This document shows, one piece after another, positions 8,799-23,747 of a DNA stretch of 25,192 nt. Position numbers and translations under genes: made by a program. Below the pieces are notes generated by a model. It saw only the letters and a program-made list of their open reading frames with translations. It had not been told where the DNA came from and made no database searches. This DNA comes from a virus, in IMG/VR virus record IMGVR_UViG_3300032246_002495, positions 1-25,192 of that record, one strand, 5' to 3'. The stretch's first letter is position 1. Every line of letters begins with the position of its first letter.

Positions 8799-9737
8799 CT
8801 ACCAGGCCCACCACTCTTCGTGCCAAGGAGTCTCTTCCTGCGGTGCAAATAGGTCTGGACCAAGATACAGCAAATCTCGCGTGCCCCAGCGAACAGAGCA
8901 GCACATTGCATCGGTTGTTGCGCCACTTAGAAGAATGCTTGCAGCCTCATCGGTTGTCACTGCCGCTGCAGATGCCACTGCAGCAATTGCGCCGCTAACA
9001 TAAGCGGCGGCGCCCGATGTTCCGCTTGGGTAAAACGTTCCGCGATTTGGATCAAAAGCAGGGATGCGATCTCCTGGTGCCCAAATGCTCAGGCACGGCC
9101 CGTGGTTGCTACCAAACCACCGCATGTCCAAATTGTTAGAGGCGCCGACCGTAATTGCATATTCGGCTCTTGCAGGCGAAAAGTTGCAGGCGTTTTTGCC
9201 GTTATTGCCAGCAGCAACTACTACGGGAAAACCGACTTCTGCCAACTTATTTACCCACGCGTCCACAGTGCTGTTTGCCGCCCCGCCAAGCGACATGTTT
9301 ACCACAGATGTTTCCGGGTCCCCATACTTATAAATCCACTTCAAACCTTTAACAATATTTGCCGGAGTGCCCTTACCGTCGCACGAAAGAACGCGTACGG
9401 AAACCATGTTTACTGACCAGGCGATGCCATATTGCTCGCTCCCAATCAAGGATGCAATTGACGTCCCGTGATTAGCGCCACATCCAGCGGTGCCGCCCTT
9501 AAGGGCCGAGTAGCCAGGGAGAATCCTGCCACCAAAAATCGGTAAGTCCGAAACCCCCGAATCAACAATGTAGACAGTGATGTCCCGACCAAGACCCGCG
9601 CCGTCCCAAACGCTTCCGTCCGGCATTCCTGCGTGCTGATCAATGCGGTCGATGCCCCATTGCGCAGAATACAAGGATTCTGTCGGTGCGCTAAGCGGTG
9701 CAATTACCAGAATTGCCGAAAGAATAAATTTAAACAT
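8799..9737 (-). CDS. Exported subtilisin-family (S8) serine protease
   Basis: 312 aa from ATG at 9737 with GGGAG SD; an upstream in-frame ATG at 9758 lacks one. Residues 1-21 form a signal peptide. The catalytic triad is complete: Asp59 in 'VYIVDSGV', His90 in 'NHGTSIASLIG', Ser241 in 'SGTSGAAAYVSG', with oxyanion Asn178 in 'AAGNNG'. The spacing and 'WGIDRID' N-terminus resemble proteinase K-like enzymes. The mature-like 'AQWGIDRID' follows the signal peptide directly, so there is no inhibitor_I9 propeptide. It is the last gene of a ten-gene overlapping operon and overlaps the preceding gene by 8 nt. It probably acts outside the cytoplasm on host surface proteins, on virion proteins or in release. 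Two Cys near 279-280 may pair with others. Confidence 0.92.
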   Translation of the reverse strand: MFKFILSAILVIAPLSAPTESLYSAQWGIDRIDQHAGMPDGSVWDGAGLGRDITVYIVDSGVSDLPIFGGRILPGYSALKGGTAGCGANHGTSIASLIGSEQYGIAWSVNMVSVRVLSCDGKGTPANIVKGLKWIYKYGDPETSVVNMSLGGAANSTVDAWVNKLAEVGFPVVVAAGNNGKNACNFSPARAEYAITVGASNNLDMRWFGSNHGPCLSIWAPGDRIPAFDPNRGTFYPSGTSGAAAYVSGAIAAVASAAAVTTDEAASILLSGATTDAMCCSVRWGTRDLLYLGPDLFAPQEETPWHEEWWAW

Positions 9738-10062
9738 TGTAATCTCCCACCACTTCATTAATCAACTCAAAGGTGTTGACTTCCTCATCAACAAAGATTG
9801 GCGTGCCTTCTCCAAGCCAGCCGCCCTGAATGTTGAAGGAAAAATACTCCTCGGCTTCTAAGAAGAAGTCGCGCTCCTCTCCATCGAATGGAAAGGACTC
9901 ATCCCTGCTGCTTTCAAATTCAGCGGCAAGTTTGGCGATGATTTTGTTCTTGCTGTACACAACAAATGGTTTATTGAATTGCCAGCCGAGGCCGATAATG
10001 CAATCCTCAAAACCGTCGGCAAGCAAGATCGGGTCTTTGTGGCCAACGCTAGAACTAGACAT
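9730..10062 (-). CDS. Conserved phage protein of unknown function
   Basis: 110 aa. The pattern 'ADGFEDCIIGLGWQFNKPFVVYSKNKIIAKL' and 'AEEYFSFNIQGGWLGEGTPIFV' (here split by an acidic 'FDGEERDF' part) is one I know from many phage genomes as a conserved hypothetical protein. It is acidic, has no signal or TM segment and is likely cytoplasmic. It overlaps both neighbours by 8 nt in the large operon, directly before the subtilisin. No function can be stated. Confidence 0.8.
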   Translation of the reverse strand: MSSSSVGHKDPILLADGFEDCIIGLGWQFNKPFVVYSKNKIIAKLAAEFESSRDESFPFDGEERDFFLEAEEYFSFNIQGGWLGEGTPIFVDEEVNTFELINEVVGDYNV

Positions 10063-12486: not shown

Positions 12487-12929
12487 TTTTTTACCCCCAA
12501 AATATCTACACGAAGGCTTGCCAAGTTTTTTGGAAGTTTGTCCTTTCGTTTTTTATCGACCGGTGCCTGCTTTTCCTCTTCAGATGTTCGAACCAGTGTC
12601 CGCTCCCCGTCATCCATTGGTCGACCCCATTTTCCCCTCTGGAGCGCAACGGCAATAAGCGCATAGTTTGCAATGTCCATTAGGGTGTCAGCCATCGACT
12701 CGCCATCGCCATCGTCAAATGGTTCAAGGATCACTTTGCCGCCCACAATTTTTCCATTCAAGAACTTCTTTGCCCGTGCGGATTTGTCGTGGGCAATTCT
12801 GCCGACCACCCCGTGAATGCCCAGCTGCTCAATGTTGGTGTCCCCATACCGCTCCTGCTTGTCGCAGAGAAGCTTGTAGGCTTCGGAGTATATCTCCGCA
12901 AAAGTCTGCTCAAAGCTCTGATCGCTCAC
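12483..12929 (-). CDS. Nucleotide-modification-associated domain 1 (DUF1599) protein
   Basis: 148 aa with GTG start overlapping the previous stop (GTGA). The core 'KLLCDKQERYGDTNIEQLGIHG' ... 'DKSARAKKFL' ... 'ESMADTLMDIANYALIAVAL' is the DUF1599/Nmad1 pattern: K-x3-YG, a helix with K/R pairs, E...D-x2-DIANY. The family is an all-alpha, MazG-like group predicted to act on modified nucleotides or their precursors. The tail is charged (EEEKQAPVDKKRKDK). Its coupling to a glycosyltransferase and context in a phage support a nucleotide role. The exact reaction is not known. Confidence 0.85.
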   Translation of the reverse strand: MSDQSFEQTFAEIYSEAYKLLCDKQERYGDTNIEQLGIHGVVGRIAHDKSARAKKFLNGKIVGGKVILEPFDDGDGESMADTLMDIANYALIAVALQRGKWGRPMDDGERTLVRTSEEEKQAPVDKKRKDKLPKNLASLRVDILGVKK

Positions 12930-13138
12930 TGCCCAGCCCTCCTTTTAATAATCCAGTTGGCTTCATTTTCACTAATCCGCATAAGTACCGCTGCTTCAAT
13001 ATCCGCCCCGCACACAATGACGTATGGCTCTTCATCGTGGTCGCTACGCTGGTCAAGAAGCAGGGTAATGGGATTGTCTTGGGACCACAAAAGCCAGATG
13101 GCCTTGACCCTTTGGCTTGGGAATAGATTGTTTTCCAT
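12926..13138 (-). CDS. Hypothetical protein, first gene of the ten-gene operon
   Basis: 70 aa from ATG at 13138. No SD precedes it; a -10 hexamer TACACT ends 6 nt upstream, so it should be leaderless. Sequence features: 'VKAIWLLWSQDNPITLLLDQRSDHDEEPYVIVCGADIEAAVLMRI' looks like a small alpha/beta protein with a strongly basic end 'IIKRRAGQ'. I do not recognise it. A longer open frame to 13393 would be antisense to the structured leader and has no start signal. Confidence 0.65.
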   Translation of the reverse strand: MENNLFPSQRVKAIWLLWSQDNPITLLLDQRSDHDEEPYVIVCGADIEAAVLMRISENEANWIIKRRAGQ

Positions 13139-13144
13139 GGGCGG

Positions 13145-13174
13145 AGTGTAGCGTAGATTTTTCCAGAGCGCCAA
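13145..13174 (-). promoter_or_regulatory. Leaderless promoter of the 8799-13138 operon
   Basis: TTGGCG (13174-13169), 18-nt spacer, TACACT (13150-13145), then 6 nt to the ATG at 13138. It appears to be the only start for ten overlapping genes. Confidence 0.55.
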
Positions 13175-13188
13175 ATGAGATTTTTGAG

Positions 13189-13382
13189 TGATAGCATAAA
13201 CGTGTGATGCCCCACCTAACCGGGCATCGCCGCTGGTCGGGAGCAGTAAGCCCGGCTTAGGCGGGAAGGGCAACGGGGATGTTGGGTCCCCTGTACGGTG
13301 TTGGCGGCCGCGCGAGCCGACGGGCTGCGTCGCAACCAGGCGTTCCTCCGTCCCCTTCCCGCTAAAACCCTTAGGAGGCAAC
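13189..13382 (+). ncRNA. GC-rich structured leader or small RNA with an extended -10 in front
   Basis: The 244-nt gap 13139-13382 has no gene. TG-A-TAGCAT (13189-13197) is an extended -10 with start near 13204. What follows folds strongly: hairpin GATGCCC/GGGCATC (13206-13212 with 13222-13228), hairpin 13236-13241 with 13251-13256, then a 10-bp perfect helix GCGGGAAGGG/CCCTTCCCGC (13261-13270 with 13353-13362), extended by TTA/TAA, that encloses about 80 nt with an inner GGGGA/TCCCC (13275-13279 with 13287-13291) and CGGC/GCCG (13305-13308 with 13316-13319). It ends 10 nt before an AGGAGG SD. I match it to no known riboswitch or ncRNA. It could be a riboswitch-like leader of the 62-aa protein or an independent RNA. 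Confidence 0.5.
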
Positions 13383-13571
13383 ATGGCAGGCAAGAAAACA
13401 CTGGCAAAGAATCAACCGGGGGACAAGCGCCCTGACAACCTAACTCAAAGAGTTTGCGCGCGTTGCGGCGAGCGCATGCTTGCAAAGCAAATCAGGGCCA
13501 CCTTGGCAATTAGCTTTGTCGGGGAGCGCGCATCAAAAGGTTTTATTCACCACCACGCTAAGTGCTCTTAG
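13383..13571 (+). CDS. Small zinc-finger protein, 62 aa
   Basis: AGGAGG SD 4 nt before the ATG. Basic N-terminus, then 'CARCGERM' at about residue 25 and 'HHHAKC' at 56-61, so a CxxC...HxxxC zinc site is likely. It is alone on the plus strand, with a long structured leader and its own predicted promoter. Its stop overlaps the convergent gene's stop by 4 nt. Family not recognised. Confidence 0.75.
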   Translation: MAGKKTLAKNQPGDKRPDNLTQRVCARCGERMLAKQIRATLAISFVGERASKGFIHHHAKCS

Positions 13572-14086
13572 TCCCATAGGCTGTAGGGGTCGTCCTTAAC
13601 TGGCGGCGTGTAGCCAGGTACCTTAGTGATGTCGTTAAGAAGGTATCCAGGAACAAACCACAGCCGTTTGTCTTCGTGATAAAAGCGTGGGACCATTGCT
13701 TCTTTTCCCTCAATCCAACCAACGACCTCAAAAATAAAATTTCTTGGGTCTGCTGGCAAAACCAAAACAAAAATGTCAGACTTCTTGTCTCCATGCCGAA
13801 GAGAAAGATCTTTAAAATTTCCCGGGCGGTATCGGACCTGAACGTTCTGGCCAATATCGGCGCCCTTGAACTGATCAATGTCCTCTCCGCTCCATGGCAT
13901 TCCCAAGGCAAACGATGCCGCAAGCTCGCCCATGGCGCCTTCAACATGCTGCTTCCACCCGTCGCGCTCCCAGCCGTACTTATCCTTCAAGCCGTCTTTG
14001 ATGGCGCGCAGCTCTCGGCGAACCCCGGCAATAGCCGCACGGTCCGCATCTTTTTCCATCAATTGAACGTAAACAGAGTTAGGCAT
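13568..14086 (-). CDS. Conserved phage protein, possible PD-(D/E)xK-like fold
   Basis: 172 aa, AGGGA SD before ATG. 'HVEGAMGELAASFALGMPW' (47-65), 'GADIGQNVQVRYRP' (75-88), 'DKKSDIFVLVL' (100-110) and 'FEVVGWIEGKEA' (119-130) follow the helix-E, D, QxR/K, beta and 'VGWI' order of a family of phage proteins I have seen annotated as hypothetical and which resembles restriction-endonuclease-like folds. The usual ExK is replaced by QVR, so nuclease activity is doubtful. It is the last gene of the lipoprotein operon. Confidence 0.7.
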   Translation of the reverse strand: MPNSVYVQLMEKDADRAAIAGVRRELRAIKDGLKDKYGWERDGWKQHVEGAMGELAASFALGMPWSGEDIDQFKGADIGQNVQVRYRPGNFKDLSLRHGDKKSDIFVLVLPADPRNFIFEVVGWIEGKEAMVPRFYHEDKRLWFVPGYLLNDITKVPGYTPPVKDDPYSLWD

Positions 14087-15306: not shown

Positions 15307-15383
15307 TGGTGAGGAAGCCTGGACTCGAACCAGGGCCTAGCGAGATATAAGCTCGCTGCTCTAACCAATTAAGCTACTTCCCC
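15307..15383 (-). tRNA. tRNA-Ile(UAU)
   Basis: 77 nt with a full cloverleaf and encoded CCA. Acceptor GGGGAAG/CTTCCTC, D stem GCTT/GAGC, anticodon stem GCGAG/CTCGC with loop CTTATAT (anticodon UAU), T arm CCTGG-TTCGAGT-CCAGG, discriminator A. It reads AUA. Most bacteria read AUA with a CAU anticodon that needs lysidine, so a UAU tRNA-Ile is uncommon. Its first base is also the last base of the TAG stop of the gene before it. Confidence 0.93.
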
Positions 15384-15699: not shown

Positions 15700-16206
15700 A
15701 TGCCTGGAGAGTGGAAACGCTTTCGTACCGTATACGACCCTGCCGCTCCTAAGAATGATCGGCTGGAGTGGCGCCCTACCCTGCGGTTTGTTGCCAAAGT
15801 TTGCCAAGAGCAGGGCATTGCCCTAAAGCGAGTGCATGTCCATTATCACCCAGAGGGCGAGGACAACATTCCAGCCAGTCACCCTTTTGGCGAGGCAGAG
15901 TATTGGAACGGCGTAATCTACCTGTGCGCCTGGGACGAAGACACAATCCTTCATGAGCTTGCCCACGTCTGGTCTGAGAGCTGGCACACACCCAAATGGG
16001 CATCCCTCTATCTGTCACTTTGCGAACACTACATGTCCCGTGAGGATTTCATGGAGGCCGTTGTTGGCACTGCTGCAGAAATGCCAGTAGTCCGGCACGC
16101 ACTAAAAAGGATTTACGGCATTACCGTTAAGGTTGGAAAGAGAACCCCTAAGGGAAGCCGGCCAATGTCCGACGAACAAAGAGTTCACGGTCGGCATTGT
16201 AGCTAG
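15700..16206 (+). CDS. HExxH zinc metallopeptidase-like phage protein
   Basis: 168 aa from ATG at 15700 (an in-frame GTG at 15688 is possible). 'DTILHELAHVWSESWHTPKWASLYLSL' contains HELAH (85-89) and a third His at 96 in 'HTPKW', like the SprT/minimal zincin arrangement HExxH...HGxxF/W. The N-terminal half is a beta region (KRVHVHYHPEGED, NGVIYLCAWDED) typical of these one-domain phage zincins. No signal peptide, so it would act in the cytoplasm. Substrate unknown. Its 3' end overlaps the convergent glycosyltransferase gene by 59 nt. Confidence 0.8.
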   Translation: MPGEWKRFRTVYDPAAPKNDRLEWRPTLRFVAKVCQEQGIALKRVHVHYHPEGEDNIPASHPFGEAEYWNGVIYLCAWDEDTILHELAHVWSESWHTPKWASLYLSLCEHYMSREDFMEAVVGTAAEMPVVRHALKRIYGITVKVGKRTPKGSRPMSDEQRVHGRHCS

Positions 16207-16828
16207 ACGCGCTTTCGTTTCTGTCGCATAGTTCGTCTCGGCCGTTGGTTCCAATCCACCTGTGCTCAACAATCTTGTCTTCCACTTTGACTATTTTGTT
16301 ATAAGACAAAGCCACGTCAGTAAATTCATTGTCGCAGTAAACGGAAATGTATTCAGGGTGATAGATATAGTTGAAACGCTCGTACCAGTTTCTGCCAATA
16401 AGAATTACCGTAGACACAGTTTCGCTGTTGCCGTAGCCGTCAGGCGGCCACACCGCACCGTCTAGGTCTGGCCAATTTTCCCTGACAAGGTTAACCATCT
16501 TTTCATCCCAGTCCTGGACAATTGGGATCATGTCGTCTTGGGCAAGGAAAAGAACCTCCCAGTACGAGTTGGCCTTATCCATGTCGGCATTGATGGCCTG
16601 AATCTTTGTGATGGAGTTTCCGTAGAAGTACTTTAAGTCAGTACCAAAGGCAATCATTTTTTCAAAAGTTTCCCTAACCTCGTCATTATTCATCGAGAGG
16701 TCGTCGCTGTCCATTGAGATTACCCACTCAATGTGATGCCTGCCAGAGGCAAGGCGCATGTATTCCGATAGGGTTTCAAAGAACTTTTTCTGCCGCGACC
16801 TGGTTGGAAACTTAACTAGCAGATGCAT
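16148..16828 (-). CDS. Family 2-like glycosyltransferase
   Basis: 226 aa. 'VISMDSDDLSM' (Asp40-Asp43) and 'LAQDDMIPI' near 96 are metal/nucleotide-sugar motifs of GT-A enzymes; 'EVLFLAQDD' and a later 'HPEYISVYCDNEFTD' region fit the acceptor side. No TM segment. It is the last gene after gmd-fcl-GT and starts 2 nt beyond the previous stop. Probably transfers a sugar made in this island. Confidence 0.8.
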   Translation of the reverse strand: MHLLVKFPTRSRQKKFFETLSEYMRLASGRHHIEWVISMDSDDLSMNNDEVRETFEKMIAFGTDLKYFYGNSITKIQAINADMDKANSYWEVLFLAQDDMIPIVQDWDEKMVNLVRENWPDLDGAVWPPDGYGNSETVSTVILIGRNWYERFNYIYHPEYISVYCDNEFTDVALSYNKIVKVEDKIVEHRWIGTNGRDELCDRNESASSYNADRELFVRRTLAGFP

Positions 16829-16830
16829 CC

Positions 16831-17424
16831 TTATTCCTTGCTTGGGTAGTAGTAGTAAATCTCACCAGGTATTCTTACCTCTTTGTGCAGGACAATCCGA
16901 ACACGCTTGGAAAAATCCTGATCCTCCCCGTTGTTGATTGGCTTAAAGCCAAAACGTTGAACAATTTCAGTTTTTATGGCGTTAAGATGGTTGGGCGTTC
17001 GGTAATAATTTCCGTCGTTCCCGGTAAACCAGCCATCGTGGTCAATGGAATGGTCAAACATCCGAGAACTTCCATTCTGGAAATAGATAATTCCCGTTAG
17101 TGTGGCGCAATCCGGACTAGATTCCAGGGCCTTAAGGGTTTTCTCAACGTAATCAGGGCTTACCATGTCGTCATCATCAATAAAAGCGCAGTACTCACCC
17201 ACTGCCGCCTGGCATAGCTCGTTGCGCTTTTCCCCAATGGTCATCTCCCCGTCGTCTACGAGGTGCAAGATCTCGACCTCATTGGTTATCTGCTTGGTCA
17301 AGACTTCCAGAAGTCTTTGTAGTTTTTCCGCGCGATCACTTACGGAACAGATTAAAAGCGATAGTCGCTTCTCTTTCTGCTCTAATTTTTGCGCAGCAAA
17401 TTCCTTAGGCATCCACGTCGACAT
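16831..17424 (-). CDS. Family 2 glycosyltransferase
   Basis: 197 aa. 'RLSLLICSVSDRAEKLQRLLEVL' at the N-terminus is the GT2 first strand, 'GEKRNELCQAAVGEYCAFIDDDDMVSPDY' (64-92) carries the DxD, and 'INNGEDQDFSKRV' near 168 carries the catalytic ED. Short single GT-A domain, soluble. GAGG SD 8 nt upstream. Lies directly after fcl, so a fucosyltransferase role is a reasonable guess, not shown. Confidence 0.85.
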   Translation of the reverse strand: MSTWMPKEFAAQKLEQKEKRLSLLICSVSDRAEKLQRLLEVLTKQITNEVEILHLVDDGEMTIGEKRNELCQAAVGEYCAFIDDDDMVSPDYVEKTLKALESSPDCATLTGIIYFQNGSSRMFDHSIDHDGWFTGNDGNYYRTPNHLNAIKTEIVQRFGFKPINNGEDQDFSKRVRIVLHKEVRIPGEIYYYYPSKE

Positions 17425-17426
17425 AT

Positions 17427-18362
17427 CTAAACCTCACTGGACATCCACCGGTATGTCCGGTCTAGTCCTTCGGCCAGGCTAATCTTTGATTCCCAACCTA
17501 GCAAGTCAAATGCTCTCTGCGCATTGACGGACCGGCGTGGTTGACCGTCGGGTTTTGAGTCGTCCCAGGCAAACTTGCCCTCGTAGCCGACCACCATGGC
17601 AATCATTGTTGCCAGCGTTTTGATCGTAATTTCCGCACCTGCGCCAAGGTTAATGGGCAGCGTAGGCACGTTTTTTGCAGCAGCGCGGACAATTCCCTCG
17701 GCCGCGTCATCAACGTAAAGGAATTCCCGGCTTGCCTCTCCCGTGCCCCAGAGACTTACTACCCCTTCTCCTGACCTCTTTGCCTCAATGCACTTACGCA
17801 TGATGGCCGGGATTACGTGAGAGGTGTCCGGATTAATGTTGTCGCCAGGACCATAAAGGTTTGTCGGGATGACGTAGGCAATGTTCATGCCGTATTGCTG
17901 GGCGTAGGCCTCTGCTTGCACTAGTAGCATCTTCTTTGCAACTCCGTAAGGCGCGTTTGTCTCCTCTGGGTATCCGGCCCAAAGCCCTTCCTCAATGAAC
18001 GGGGGTTTTGCGTACTTCGGATAGGAGCACACGGTGCCCACCACAACGACCTTAGATGTTTCAGCAATGCGCGCCTGCTCTATGACGTTTAAGCCCATCA
18101 TGGCGTTGGCGTACAAGAATCTTCCAGGAAATTTCATGTTTGCACCAATGCCGCCAACTTCTGCCGCGGCGTGGATAACAACATCTGGCTTTGCTTCCTT
18201 AAACAGTTGAGCGGTTTGTGTTTGTGAAGTCAAGTCCCAGTCCCAGGACCGCGGAATAAGAACGTCTGCGGTGTTGTGCAAGTCCAACCGCTCAACGATC
18301 CGCTCTCCAAGAAAGCCACCGCCGCCTGTTACAAGCACTACCTTGCCGCGCAGCTTGCTCAT
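17427..18362 (-). CDS. fcl: GDP-L-fucose synthase (SDR epimerase/reductase)
   Basis: 311 aa. NAD(P)-binding 'VTGGGGFLG' (11-19); catalytic Ser113 in 'VVGTVCSYPKYA' and Tyr139-Lys143 in 'NAPYGVAKKMLL'; 'NLYGPGDN' and 'EFLYVDDAA' follow in family order. These match GDP-4-keto-6-deoxy-D-mannose 3,5-epimerase-4-reductase (WcaG/Fcl), which makes GDP-L-fucose from the Gmd product using NADPH. It overlaps gmd by ATGA, so the two steps are co-expressed. No frameshift or missing residue seen. Confidence 0.9.
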   Translation of the reverse strand: MSKLRGKVVLVTGGGGFLGERIVERLDLHNTADVLIPRSWDWDLTSQTQTAQLFKEAKPDVVIHAAAEVGGIGANMKFPGRFLYANAMMGLNVIEQARIAETSKVVVVGTVCSYPKYAKPPFIEEGLWAGYPEETNAPYGVAKKMLLVQAEAYAQQYGMNIAYVIPTNLYGPGDNINPDTSHVIPAIMRKCIEAKRSGEGVVSLWGTGEASREFLYVDDAAEGIVRAAAKNVPTLPINLGAGAEITIKTLATMIAMVVGYEGKFAWDDSKPDGQPRRSVNAQRAFDLLGWESKISLAEGLDRTYRWMSSEV

Positions 18363-19339
18363 CTTGGTCCATCCATGTCTGCTTTGAGCATGATGCCTAC
18401 AAGTTCTTCAAACTTTACCTTTGGCTCCCAGCCAAGGATGTTCTTTGCCCGAGTGGCATCGCCACAGAGCTGATCAACCTCGGCCGGTCTAAAATATCGC
18501 TGGTCGACCTCAACATAATCTTTCCAGTTGAGACCGACCAATGAGAAAGCCCTTTCGCACAGTTCCTGAACTGTATGCATTTCCCCCGTAGCCACTACGT
18601 AATCTCCGGGCTTGTCCTGCTGAAGCATGAGCCACATAGCCTCAACGTACTCGGGCGCATAGCCCCAGTCTCGTTTTGCTTCTAGGTTTCCCATGACCAA
18701 TTTACTTGCGCGTCGTGCCGCAATATCTGCAACACCACGGGTAACTTTGTGGGTGACAAAGGTGTTGCCGCGCCTTGGTGATTCATGGTTAAAAAGAATG
18801 CCGTTGCTTGCATGGACTAGGTATGCGTTGCGGTAAAGCTTTGTCATGTCGTGAGCAAAAACTTTTGATATGGCGTACGGGCTTTGCGGGTTAAAGGGAG
18901 TTGACTCCCGCTGAGGGGTTTCAAGCACCTTGCCGTACATCTCGCTGGAGCTTGCCTGGTAGTAGCGGACATCCCAGTCTGCCCACCTGACTGATTCAAG
19001 TAGGCGCAAGGTCCCGATGGCATCTGTCTGTGCGGTGAATTCCGGGATGTCAAAGCTCACCTTGACATGGCTTTGGGCGGCAAGGTTGTAGACCTCATTT
19101 GGCTTGATCCTTTGCATTAGGGCGTTGATAGAGCTGCCGTCGAGCATGTCCCCGTAATGCAAGGCAAACGGCACAGAGCCGTCTTTTGCCTGCTCAATGA
19201 GGTGGTCTATTCGCTGTGTATTGAAATTGCTGGCGCGTCGAATGACACCATGGACCTCGTAGCCTTTGCTGAGCAACAACTCAGAAAGATACGATCCGTC
19301 CTGGCCAGTAACCCCAAAGATCAACGCTTTCCTTGCCAC
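18359..19339 (-). CDS. gmd: GDP-mannose 4,6-dehydratase
   Basis: 326 aa from a GTG at 19339, chosen because it gives the family N-terminus MARKALIFGVTGQDGSYL and because TATACT ends 6 nt before it (leaderless); a GTG at 19354 would add five residues. NADP motif 'GVTGQDG', 'GDMLDGSS', catalytic 'SSSEMYG' (Ser/Glu) and 'SPYAISK' (Tyr/Lys), 'NHESPRRG' and 'RDWGYAPEYVEAMW' are all standard Gmd blocks. It converts GDP-D-mannose to GDP-4-keto-6-deoxy-D-mannose, the first step to GDP-L-fucose or related sugars. Confidence 0.95.
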   Translation of the reverse strand: MARKALIFGVTGQDGSYLSELLLSKGYEVHGVIRRASNFNTQRIDHLIEQAKDGSVPFALHYGDMLDGSSINALMQRIKPNEVYNLAAQSHVKVSFDIPEFTAQTDAIGTLRLLESVRWADWDVRYYQASSSEMYGKVLETPQRESTPFNPQSPYAISKVFAHDMTKLYRNAYLVHASNGILFNHESPRRGNTFVTHKVTRGVADIAARRASKLVMGNLEAKRDWGYAPEYVEAMWLMLQQDKPGDYVVATGEMHTVQELCERAFSLVGLNWKDYVEVDQRYFRPAEVDQLCGDATRAKNILGWEPKVKFEELVGIMLKADMDGPR

Positions 19340-19345
19340 GCCGGG

Positions 19346-19351
19346 AGTATA
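19346..19351 (-). promoter_or_regulatory. -10 hexamer of leaderless gmd mRNA
   Basis: TATACT on minus (19351-19346), 6 nt before the GTG at 19339. A weak TTACGG lies 16 nt upstream. It diverges from the -10 at 19387-19392, so both arms of the sugar island start within 60 bp. Confidence 0.5.
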
Positions 19352-19384
19352 CACACATGAAAGTGGCCCGTAACTTGCGTGTCG

Positions 19385-19392
19385 TGTAGTAT
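19385..19392 (+). promoter_or_regulatory. -10 hexamer of leaderless zinc-ribbon/glycosyltransferase mRNA
   Basis: TAGTAT (19387-19392), preceded by TG, ends 6 nt before the GTG at 19399. No SD precedes that GTG, which fits a leaderless message. Confidence 0.5.
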
Positions 19393-19398
19393 CTTTGT

Positions 19399-19551
19399 GT
19401 GGTAGAGGACAAACAGATTCCCCAGGAGCCGGAAGCAGACCCAGAAGAAGTTATAATGACTTGTCTGAATTGCGGAAGGCGAATGAGCCACCGAAGCTGT
19501 AAATTGATTTGCGAATGCGGCTACTATGCCTCCTGTTCAGACTACTATTAG
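19399..19551 (+). CDS. Small zinc-ribbon protein, 50 aa
   Basis: GTG start, acidic N-terminus (VEDKQIPQEPEADPEE), then 'MTCLNCGRRMSHRSCKLICECGYYASC', a treble Cys pattern CxxCG...C...CxCG typical of small phage zinc ribbons. It is leaderless by prediction and is the first gene of the plus arm. Its stop TAG runs into the AGGAG SD of the glycosyltransferase 8 nt downstream, so the two are coupled. Function unknown. Confidence 0.75.
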   Translation: MVEDKQIPQEPEADPEEVIMTCLNCGRRMSHRSCKLICECGYYASCSDYY

Positions 19552-19559
19552 GAGTAATA

Positions 19560-20126
19560 ATGACTAGCAAAGTGACTGTCATTACGGCAACTATCCCCGG
19601 CAGGGAGGAGTTGCTGGAGCGCGCCCGGAAATCTGTTGGAGAGCAGACGGTGCAGCCCCATGCACACATTATTCAACTTGACATCAATAGAAACGGTGGT
19701 GCATTTACAAAAAACAGGCTATTTGACTTTGTCAAAACTGAGTGGTTTATGGTTCTTGACGACGACGATTTCCTTTTGCCGCATCATATTGAAACTTTGC
19801 TTAATCACTCAGAGGGCTACGACATTGTTGGCTCTTGGCATGAGGGAAAACACGCAACTTACAATCGCCCGCTGTCAGAAATTATCAATCAAAATAATGT
19901 TTTACGTCATGGCATTCCTCACACCGCCATTGTGCGTAGCGAATTGTTTTCTCGGCTTGGCCGATTTGCTATCCAAACCGCTTATGACACCAAATTCTGG
20001 GATGACGCAGTGAAGGCGGGTGCCAAGGTCAACATTGTTGAACAAAAAACTTGGCACTACGACATTGACGAAAGCCGCCCCCACGAAAGCCTAGGGGGTT
20101 TGCCATGGGCGAGCGAGAACGCCTAG
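19560..20126 (+). CDS. Family 2 glycosyltransferase
   Basis: 188 aa from ATG at 19560, AGGAG SD 5 nt upstream; an in-frame start at 19509 lies inside the zinc-ribbon gene. 'KVTVITATIPGREELLERA' is the GT2 first strand, 'TEWFMVLDDDDFLLPHHI' (60-77) the DxD, 'TKFWDDAVKAG' and 'TWHYDIDESRPHESLGG' the acceptor end. Soluble, single-domain. Overlaps the next gene by 22 nt. Confidence 0.88.
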   Translation: MTSKVTVITATIPGREELLERARKSVGEQTVQPHAHIIQLDINRNGGAFTKNRLFDFVKTEWFMVLDDDDFLLPHHIETLLNHSEGYDIVGSWHEGKHATYNRPLSEIINQNNVLRHGIPHTAIVRSELFSRLGRFAIQTAYDTKFWDDAVKAGAKVNIVEQKTWHYDIDESRPHESLGGLPWASENA

Positions 20127-20728
20127 TCATTCTTTCTGCTGGTAGGGCGACGCGCCTTGGAGGGAAAAACAAGCTGCTTGTGGAGGCTGCTGGCACGCCA
20201 GTTCTGGATTGGCACAAGCGTTCTGCTGGGAATTTGATTACAGACATCGTCGTTCGATCAACCGACTGGCTTGAAGTAAATCGAGCTGCCGAGCATTGGG
20301 TCTCTGGCGTTGTTACCCATGACGACCTAGACGGCCCGGCGGGTGCCCTTCGGCACTACGTATCGCATCGCTTCCACGATGGGCCGCTTACGGTCATCTT
20401 TGCCGACACGCTTGTGCCTTCAATTCCAGGGCATGCAGGCTCTTGGGTCGGGGTTGCCCCCAACCCGGGAAGGGTTTGGGATTACCAGCACGACTGGACG
20501 TGGGTTCGCGGCGTACCTGGCGGCAACGTCTGCGTTGGGCTATATCGATTTGAGAACACTGCAGCACTTCGACAAGTAATTTCGGACATCCCAAACTATG
20601 GGCAAGAGACTCCGATGATTGACGTGCTCAACGAATACGAAAAGATCTACCATATGCGCTCAGTCCATGTTGCTGGGTGGCAAGATGCCGGAGATTTTTC
20701 GGCAATAGCGAAAGTGCAGGCCATTTAA
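20105..20728 (+). CDS. Sugar nucleotidyltransferase-like protein
   Basis: 207 aa. 'LVILSAGRATRLGGKNKLLVEAAGTPVLDW' (7-36, here with SAGRATRLG for GxGTR and the KxxL lysine) is the NTP-transferase signature; 'GPLTVIFADTLVPSIPG' carries the metal Asp of the 'AD' motif; 'GWQDAGDFSAI' is the second metal site. Family members join a sugar-1-phosphate to an NTP. The donor and sugar cannot be read from sequence. It would supply another activated sugar to the local glycosyltransferases. Confidence 0.82.
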   Translation: MGERERLVILSAGRATRLGGKNKLLVEAAGTPVLDWHKRSAGNLITDIVVRSTDWLEVNRAAEHWVSGVVTHDDLDGPAGALRHYVSHRFHDGPLTVIFADTLVPSIPGHAGSWVGVAPNPGRVWDYQHDWTWVRGVPGGNVCVGLYRFENTAALRQVISDIPNYGQETPMIDVLNEYEKIYHMRSVHVAGWQDAGDFSAIAKVQAI

Positions 20729-21453
20729 TGTCGTACGCCCTTGCAAATATTCCTCCAGTGTCTTGTTACGTGCGCAAGGAATACCTGCGCGACCTAGAAG
20801 ACGGGCATGGTGAATTCACCCCAGCTTATTGGGTAACGGTGAAGGTTATTCGTCATCGCGCCCTATACATCGAGGCTTTTTTGCCGGAGTATGGCGCCCT
20901 GTACGACAAGCTTCCGATTAGTGCTTTTTTGCAAAAACCATCTACCCCAAAGGTTGACCTTACCCTTGGTGATTTGCAGCTATGGGACGCAAACTCAACA
21001 CAAATCTCCGTGATTGAAAAAGCGGTGTTAAAAAATATGCGTTGCAAATACAGGACTTCAAAGGGGGAATGGAACGAGGGCCACTACATGTTTACTGTTG
21101 ACATGGTGCACAGCGATCCAAATGAGATCAACGCAAACTGGGCAAGCCTTCCAGCTGAGCACAAGTCCTACAATTTTATTCGACTAGACAATGGGCAATA
21201 TGCCGCACAGCCAAACAACCGTGTCCTTTGGCTAGACGAGGCCCTGGTGTACAAGGAGACAAAGATTCCCGACTTTAAGGTGAGCACCAAGGAGTTCTCT
21301 GCGGAGGGCGGACGCTGGCGTCTGGGCGGAGAAGATTCTTGGAACTATGATAAGCAAGACGAAAAAGCCCAAGAAAAGTTTTTGCGCCCTATTAACCCAG
21401 ATCCAATCCGGGCACTAGGCGCAGCAATAAAAAAGGGTTCAATTTCGGATTAA
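20728..21453 (+). CDS. Conserved phage protein of unknown function
   Basis: 241 aa; ATG shares its A with the last base of the previous TAA (TAATG). 'IPPVSCYVRKEYLRDLEDGHGEF', 'LPEYGALYDKLPISAF', 'LQLWDANSTQISVIEK', 'EGHYMFTVDM', 'EHKSYNFIRLDNGQYAAQPNNRVLW' and 'PDFKVST' are blocks I recognise from a large hypothetical protein family in marine and freshwater phages. No known catalytic motif, soluble. Its linkage with the sugar genes may be local only. Confidence 0.85.
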   Translation: MSYALANIPPVSCYVRKEYLRDLEDGHGEFTPAYWVTVKVIRHRALYIEAFLPEYGALYDKLPISAFLQKPSTPKVDLTLGDLQLWDANSTQISVIEKAVLKNMRCKYRTSKGEWNEGHYMFTVDMVHSDPNEINANWASLPAEHKSYNFIRLDNGQYAAQPNNRVLWLDEALVYKETKIPDFKVSTKEFSAEGGRWRLGGEDSWNYDKQDEKAQEKFLRPINPDPIRALGAAIKKGSISD

Positions 21454-23594: not shown

Positions 23595-23671
23595 TGGTGA
23601 CCCCGGCAGGAGTCGAACCTGCGACCAACTGCTTAGAAGGCAGCTGCTCTAATCCACTGAGCTACGGGGCC
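23595..23671 (-). tRNA. tRNA-Arg(UCU)
   Basis: 77 nt, encoded CCA. Acceptor GGCCCCG/CGGGGTC, D stem GCTC/GAGC, anticodon stem GCTGC/GCAGT with loop CTTCTAA (anticodon UCU), T arm GCAGG-TTCGACT-CCTGC. Reads AGA, usually a rare Arg codon in GC-rich bacteria. Confidence 0.95.
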
Positions 23672-23672
23672 G

Positions 23673-23747
23673 TGGAGCCGACGGAGGGATTTGAACCCCC
23701 GACCAGTTGTTTACAAAACAACCGCTCTACCCCTGAGCTACGTCGGC
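23673..23747 (-). tRNA. tRNA-Thr(UGU)
   Basis: 75 nt, encoded CCA, discriminator U. Acceptor GCCGACG/CGTCGGC, D stem GCTC/GAGC, anticodon stem GTTGT/ACAAC with loop TTTGTAA (anticodon UGU), T arm GGGGG-TTCAAAT-CCCTC. Reads ACA. One base separates it from tRNA-Arg. Confidence 0.95.

Follow-up and report, generated by a model that had tools for sequence, protein, structure and literature searches.

Autogenous leaders of RNA-binding proteins are known from the ribosomal protein leaders and from gp32 and RegA of phage T4. In leaders that bind a protein or a metabolite, the stems normally covary. Phage phi29 encodes a packaging RNA, similar in length to the RNA described here, that is not the leader of an ORF. 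Com of bacteriophage Mu, a protein of 62 amino acids (aa) with a CCCC zinc module, acts on mom mRNA by way of a short hairpin (PMC6483171). Comparative genomics has also yielded orphan riboswitch candidates and other structured RNAs (for example, PMC2864571).

The window, by which we mean the whole stretch of DNA analyzed (IMG/VR record IMGVR_UViG_3300032246_002495, linear, 25,192 bases), is a tailed phage record with tail-fibre, terminase large subunit (phrog_38), nucleotide-sugar, and glycosyltransferase genes and three tRNAs. The terminase gene is adjoined by an extracellular serine protease-like gene (8799-9758, minus strand; phrog_3677) that is 44% identical to contigs of Acinetobacter phage MD-2021a, and positions 16148-21453 hold glycosyltransferases, two nucleotide-sugar epimerase/dehydratase-like genes, and a phrog_3704 "ferredoxin"-type gene. 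In a relative, G013, a prohead serine protease is joined to Hva1_TUDOR and ferritin-like domains within a single 672-aa ORF (L193:17647-19665). The tRNAs differ by clade, being Ile, Arg, and Thr in the window and Ile, Arg, and Leu in G013 (tRNA-set loci 15307-15383 and 23595-23747 of the window, and L196 and L197).

Within this record, an RNA of ~160 nt (13204-13363, plus strand) lies ahead of a 62-aa gene (13383-13571). The genes immediately flanking this unit are on the minus strand and the unit itself is on the plus strand, where an extended −10 element, a GC-rich stretch (13204-13363), a Shine-Dalgarno (SD) sequence, and the 62-aa ORF follow one another. A sequence-only reading of the window had described a GC-rich block with two small hairpins, an extended −10 placed for a start at about 13204, and an AGGAGG SD. 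Each of these elements is present in the sequence, and the GC content of the block is indeed 0.65 to 0.72, versus 0.45 to 0.53 in the surroundings. The features are as follows.

13189-13197, plus strand: extended −10 promoter element, TGATAGCAT, with a predicted transcription start at about 13204
13204-13212 with 13222-13230, plus strand: hairpin 1, 9 bp, with a 9-nt loop containing an invariant CCU
13236-13241 with 13251-13256, plus strand: hairpin 2, 6 bp, from a hand alignment
13260-13270 with 13353-13363, plus strand: closing helix P1, 11 bp, in 7 distinct sequences
13275-13279 with 13287-13291, plus strand: hairpin P2, 5 bp, inside P1, with 2 two-sided pairs
13295-13351, plus strand: core, comprising P3 (ACGG/CCGU) and the irregular hairpin P4, whose pairing is thermodynamic only
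13373-13378, plus strand: Shine-Dalgarno sequence AGGAGG, read from the sequence, ~10 nt downstream of P1
13383-13571, plus strand: gene for a 62-aa basic protein with C-x2-C ... H-x3-C, having homologues at 52 to 95% identity

Separate searches of 2.9 million viral contigs with the 62-aa protein and with the RNA core converged on one group of 13 contigs in addition to the starting record (L005 and L012 to L023). The RNA stands directly upstream of the 62-aa gene in 14 of 14 contigs, of which L020 holds just the first codons of the gene and L022 starts inside the RNA. Each record has one credible copy; a second match in G009 (13.2 bits, E 0.24) was taken as chance. The contigs form two clades with ~66% nucleotide identity in aligned flanks. 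Beyond this set, relaxed DNA patterns run against the viral contigs gave the known contigs again and chance matches, and the exact core had no match in 84,980 genomes. A looser core pattern gave 85 stretches; 80 of these were scored, with at most 29.2 bits under the model, and the best resembles coding sequence. A covariance model found nothing in ~600 genomes of two phyla under strict filters and with no positive control, a DNA-level search of phages returned just short chance matches (20 to 24 nt, E 2 or worse), and a plasmid search gave only two short matches (E 0.5); these absences outside the 14 contigs are bounded by the collections searched and by search sensitivity.

The sequence-only reading had called the RNA strongly structured, and folding energy did not bear this out: the minimum free energy (MFE) was −82.1, compared with −79.0 ± 3.9 for shuffles (z, −0.81), and 47 of 200 shuffles did at least as well. 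Because the single-sequence MFE is not unusual, proof of structure has to be comparative, from covariation and extreme conservation. Compensatory changes among relatives, which that reading had named as the check, were found as 8 two-sided pairs in 4 helices. In hairpin 1, 97.8% of alignment cells are paired and covariation is 0.60 versus 0.31 in shuffles, with 3 two-sided pairs and with slid controls at or below 0.36; in the alignment of P1 to P4, all cells are paired and covariation is 0.101 versus 0.042. In both tested alignments, none of 500 shuffles reached the covariation score, and these statistics rest on a limited number of events, i.e., few independent changes between two clades. Hairpin 2 contributes 2 two-sided pairs in the hand alignment (G-C to A-U and G-C to C-G), and P2 changes from GGGGA/TCCCC to GAGGC/GCCTC. 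P1, predicted at 10 to 13 bp, is conserved over 11 bp (13260-13270 with 13353-13363), and the extra outer pairs are not conserved; it is 100% paired in 7 distinct sequences, with 1 two-sided pair and 9 invariant pairs. P3 and P4 show no variation, so their pairing is a thermodynamic prediction only; the core also includes an unpaired UUCCU stretch and a CCUCC (13345-13349).

Over hairpins 1 and 2, P1, and P2, the pair states comprise 38 Watson-Crick, 9 G-U, no A-C, and 1 other. The presence of G-U together with the lack of A-C indicates that folding occurs on the plus strand. The expectation of a structured RNA before the 62-aa zinc-motif gene thus held, with the RNA next to the gene in 14 of 14 contigs and with compensatory changes, and a plus-strand RNA that is real and under selection is very nearly certain. 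Nor does it fit a known RNA class: no credible Rfam match was obtained for three members even at E≤10. At gathering cutoffs, the 4,227 Rfam families found only tRNAs in the 25,192-nt record, and at E≤10 the starting record, L023, and L016 matched unrelated families only, far under the cutoffs of those families. On comparative sequence evidence, we regard the RNA as founding a new family of structured RNAs, marked by a core frozen to an unusual degree, in an uncultured tailed-phage lineage.

The protein encoded downstream is 52 to 64% identical between the starting record and the other clade. For the same comparison, dN is 0.33 to 0.38 and dS is at least 2.0, saturated, or not computable, and the 62-aa ORF is therefore translated and under purifying selection. 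Residues C25, C28, H57, H58, and C61 are invariant across six of eight proteins, a single H57-to-Y change in L006 set aside, and the N terminus is basic; in its own numbering, the protein alignment lists H57, H58, and C61 as invariant columns. The "zinc finger" label draws on these residues, and the libraries yielded no significant family match: Pfam, PHROG, and NCBIfam gave nothing at E≤0.001, and searches against phage proteins gave either nothing or a Vibrio phage at E 7. An AlphaFold model of moderate confidence (pLDDT, 73.6) was closest to zinc ribosomal proteins in a fold search (eS26, E 0.9, not significant), and the best profile match was eL34 (E 0.31, not significant). Neither search matched a known RNA binder significantly. 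Nor did the family searches point to a Mu Com-like regulator: this protein keeps C, C, H, H, and C, whereas Com has CCCC. This basic zinc-motif protein is plausibly a nucleic-acid binder.

Conservation was measured over 2.3 kb aligned among six contigs, where the core is by a wide margin the best-conserved block (the top 60 nt have 0.95 identical columns, versus a mean of 0.50 and a standard deviation of 0.125). The invariant runs comprise 13295-13334 (40 nt) and 13336-13351 (16 nt) in the core and 13260-13269 (10 nt) and 13354-13362 (9 nt) in the arms of P1. P2 and a base pair beside the core vary, with compensation, between these runs, which makes recombination or recent exchange of one tract an unlikely source of the identity. 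The core and P1 are unchanged while silent sites of the 62-aa gene are near saturation, and the RNA probably has a function of importance.

A long invariant block could also be conserved as DNA, for instance as a replication origin or a packaging or recombination site. The invariant inverted repeat formed by 13261-13269 and 13354-13362, ~85 bp apart, would suit such an element. However, the compensatory changes and the G-U pairs without A-C point to a plus-strand RNA, and the promoter and SD positions are kept; we consider a DNA-level element very improbable, though single-stranded DNA might fold on that same strand. The core might instead be conserved because it encodes a peptide, since a frame is open through it in both clades. 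Third positions are nevertheless fixed while nearby synonymous sites are near saturation, Pfam is empty for the peptide, and only one of the clades has the frame running into the 62-aa gene, so we regard this explanation as refuted at this level. The frame of GTG 13298 (13298-13363) reads VLAARADGLRR(N/I)QAFLR(P/C)LPA, with a surface resemblance to the ABC-permease EAA loop that we judge a coincidence; a coding core with an ABC-permease motif is rejected on the invariant third positions and the lack of a Pfam match.

The signals around the RNA are constant in place across the relatives, where the positions of the extended −10 and the ribosome-binding site are kept. The other clade has TGATAGTAT as its extended −10, and TGATAG (13189-13194) is an invariant 6-nt run of the promoter in the six-contig alignment. 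TGATAGYAT occurs once in the 25,192-nt record, yet at least one copy arose in 14 of 100 shuffles, and no −35 element was recognizable upstream. The SD is of the AGGAGG type in the clade of the starting record and AGAGGU in the other. No terminator-like site was found between the RNA and the 62-aa gene (13204-13571, inside the checked region 12900-13900). In all 14 contigs, the RNA occupies a constant position before one gene, with an SD nearby.

The sequence-only reading had left a leader, an autoregulatory site, and a small RNA side by side. A leader or an RNA-protein unit is now favored, because of the fixed promoter and SD and the lack of a terminator-like site before the gene; a protein and a small-molecule ligand are not separated. 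We hypothesize, with a probability of roughly 0.45, that the RNA acts in cis as a leader governing translation of the 62-aa protein, which would itself be the ligand; a cis-acting leader of any kind has somewhat better than even odds. Plus-strand transcription from its own extended −10 would give a short mRNA with the RNA as its 5′ leader. The P1-closed domain, comprising the P2 arm and the near-invariant P3/P4 core, would form a recognition module immediately upstream of the ribosome-binding site, through which translation of the 62-aa protein may be controlled in cis. The most likely ligand would be the 62-aa protein itself, acting autogenously, a first choice made because the RNA is never found apart from the gene and the analysis turned up no other target. 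No complementary targets elsewhere in the phage rose above chance, which favors a cis role.

Direct sequestration of the SD was considered as the mechanism. With P1 blocked, CCUCC (13345-13349) pairs with the SD at 0.98 to 1.0 in the clade of the starting record, versus 0.00 to 0.03 in the other clade; the alternative pairing appears in one clade only, and a conserved SD switch through CCUCC did not emerge. In the loop of hairpin 1 (13213-13221), CCU is present in both clades and is complementary to part of the SD; a loop-SD contact is possible, at a consistency too low for a claim.

What a cis-acting leader explains least well is the unvarying P1. A closing helix with 9 to 10 invariant base pairs is unusual among protein- or metabolite-binding leaders, and this counts against the leader reading. 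The ~75 invariant nucleotides, helices included, suggest sequence-specific contact along the whole core, as would be expected if the RNA were itself the functional product, stable, perhaps complexed with the 62-aa protein that the transcript also encodes, and working in trans on some component of the host or the phage; the RNA and the protein also always co-occur. However, there is no terminator-like site between the RNA and the gene, the SD follows close behind P1, and complementarity is not above chance for the phage genome or above shuffles for the rRNA of Escherichia coli. We consider an RNA that is its own product less likely than the leader, with a dedicated RNA-protein complex as a strong competitor. 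More doubtful is a dedicated phage ribonucleoprotein, in which the RNA and the zinc protein would contact a conserved host machine through the near-frozen 75-nt sequence. Mimicry of rRNA, or antisense action on it, was rejected, the matches to E. coli rRNA being no longer than those of shuffles.

A metabolite or ion riboswitch governing the 62-aa gene would account for the multi-helix domain with a closing stem and a conserved interior just ahead of the SD, as in translational riboswitches. Against this stand its restriction to one phage lineage and one gene of uncharacterized function, a P1 that barely covaries, unlike usual riboswitch stems, and the lack of a matching Rfam class, and we hold a riboswitch to be quite improbable. 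The autogenous leader remains our preferred reading.

Clearly covarying new families of structured RNA are uncommon, and such rigidity, helices included, in a fast-diverging phage lineage suggests an exact molecular partner. One RNA and one 62-aa protein would make a compact two-part system. If the protein binds its own leader, the pair would be a minimal RNA-protein switch; otherwise, the RNA may lead to a host target.

Among the described systems, the phi29 packaging RNA differs in that the terminase gene (phrog_38) here lies several kilobases from the RNA, which has no Rfam match. Like the orphan riboswitch candidates (PMC2864571), this is a covarying multi-stem RNA ahead of a gene, with its ligand unassigned, although its range is far narrower (14 contigs), its sequence is stiffer, and it belongs to no Rfam family. 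The likeness to Mu Com and mom lies in a small phage zinc protein together with an RNA fold adjoining a start codon, whereas here the motif is C-x2-C...H-x3-C and the fold lies ahead of the gene for the zinc protein itself. Compared with the autogenous leaders, the RNA has no match to an Rfam ribosomal protein leader, P1 and the core helices hardly vary, and binding is predicted. What it shares with them is a folded RNA immediately upstream of the SD in a gene for a small basic protein and a constant pairing of RNA and gene.
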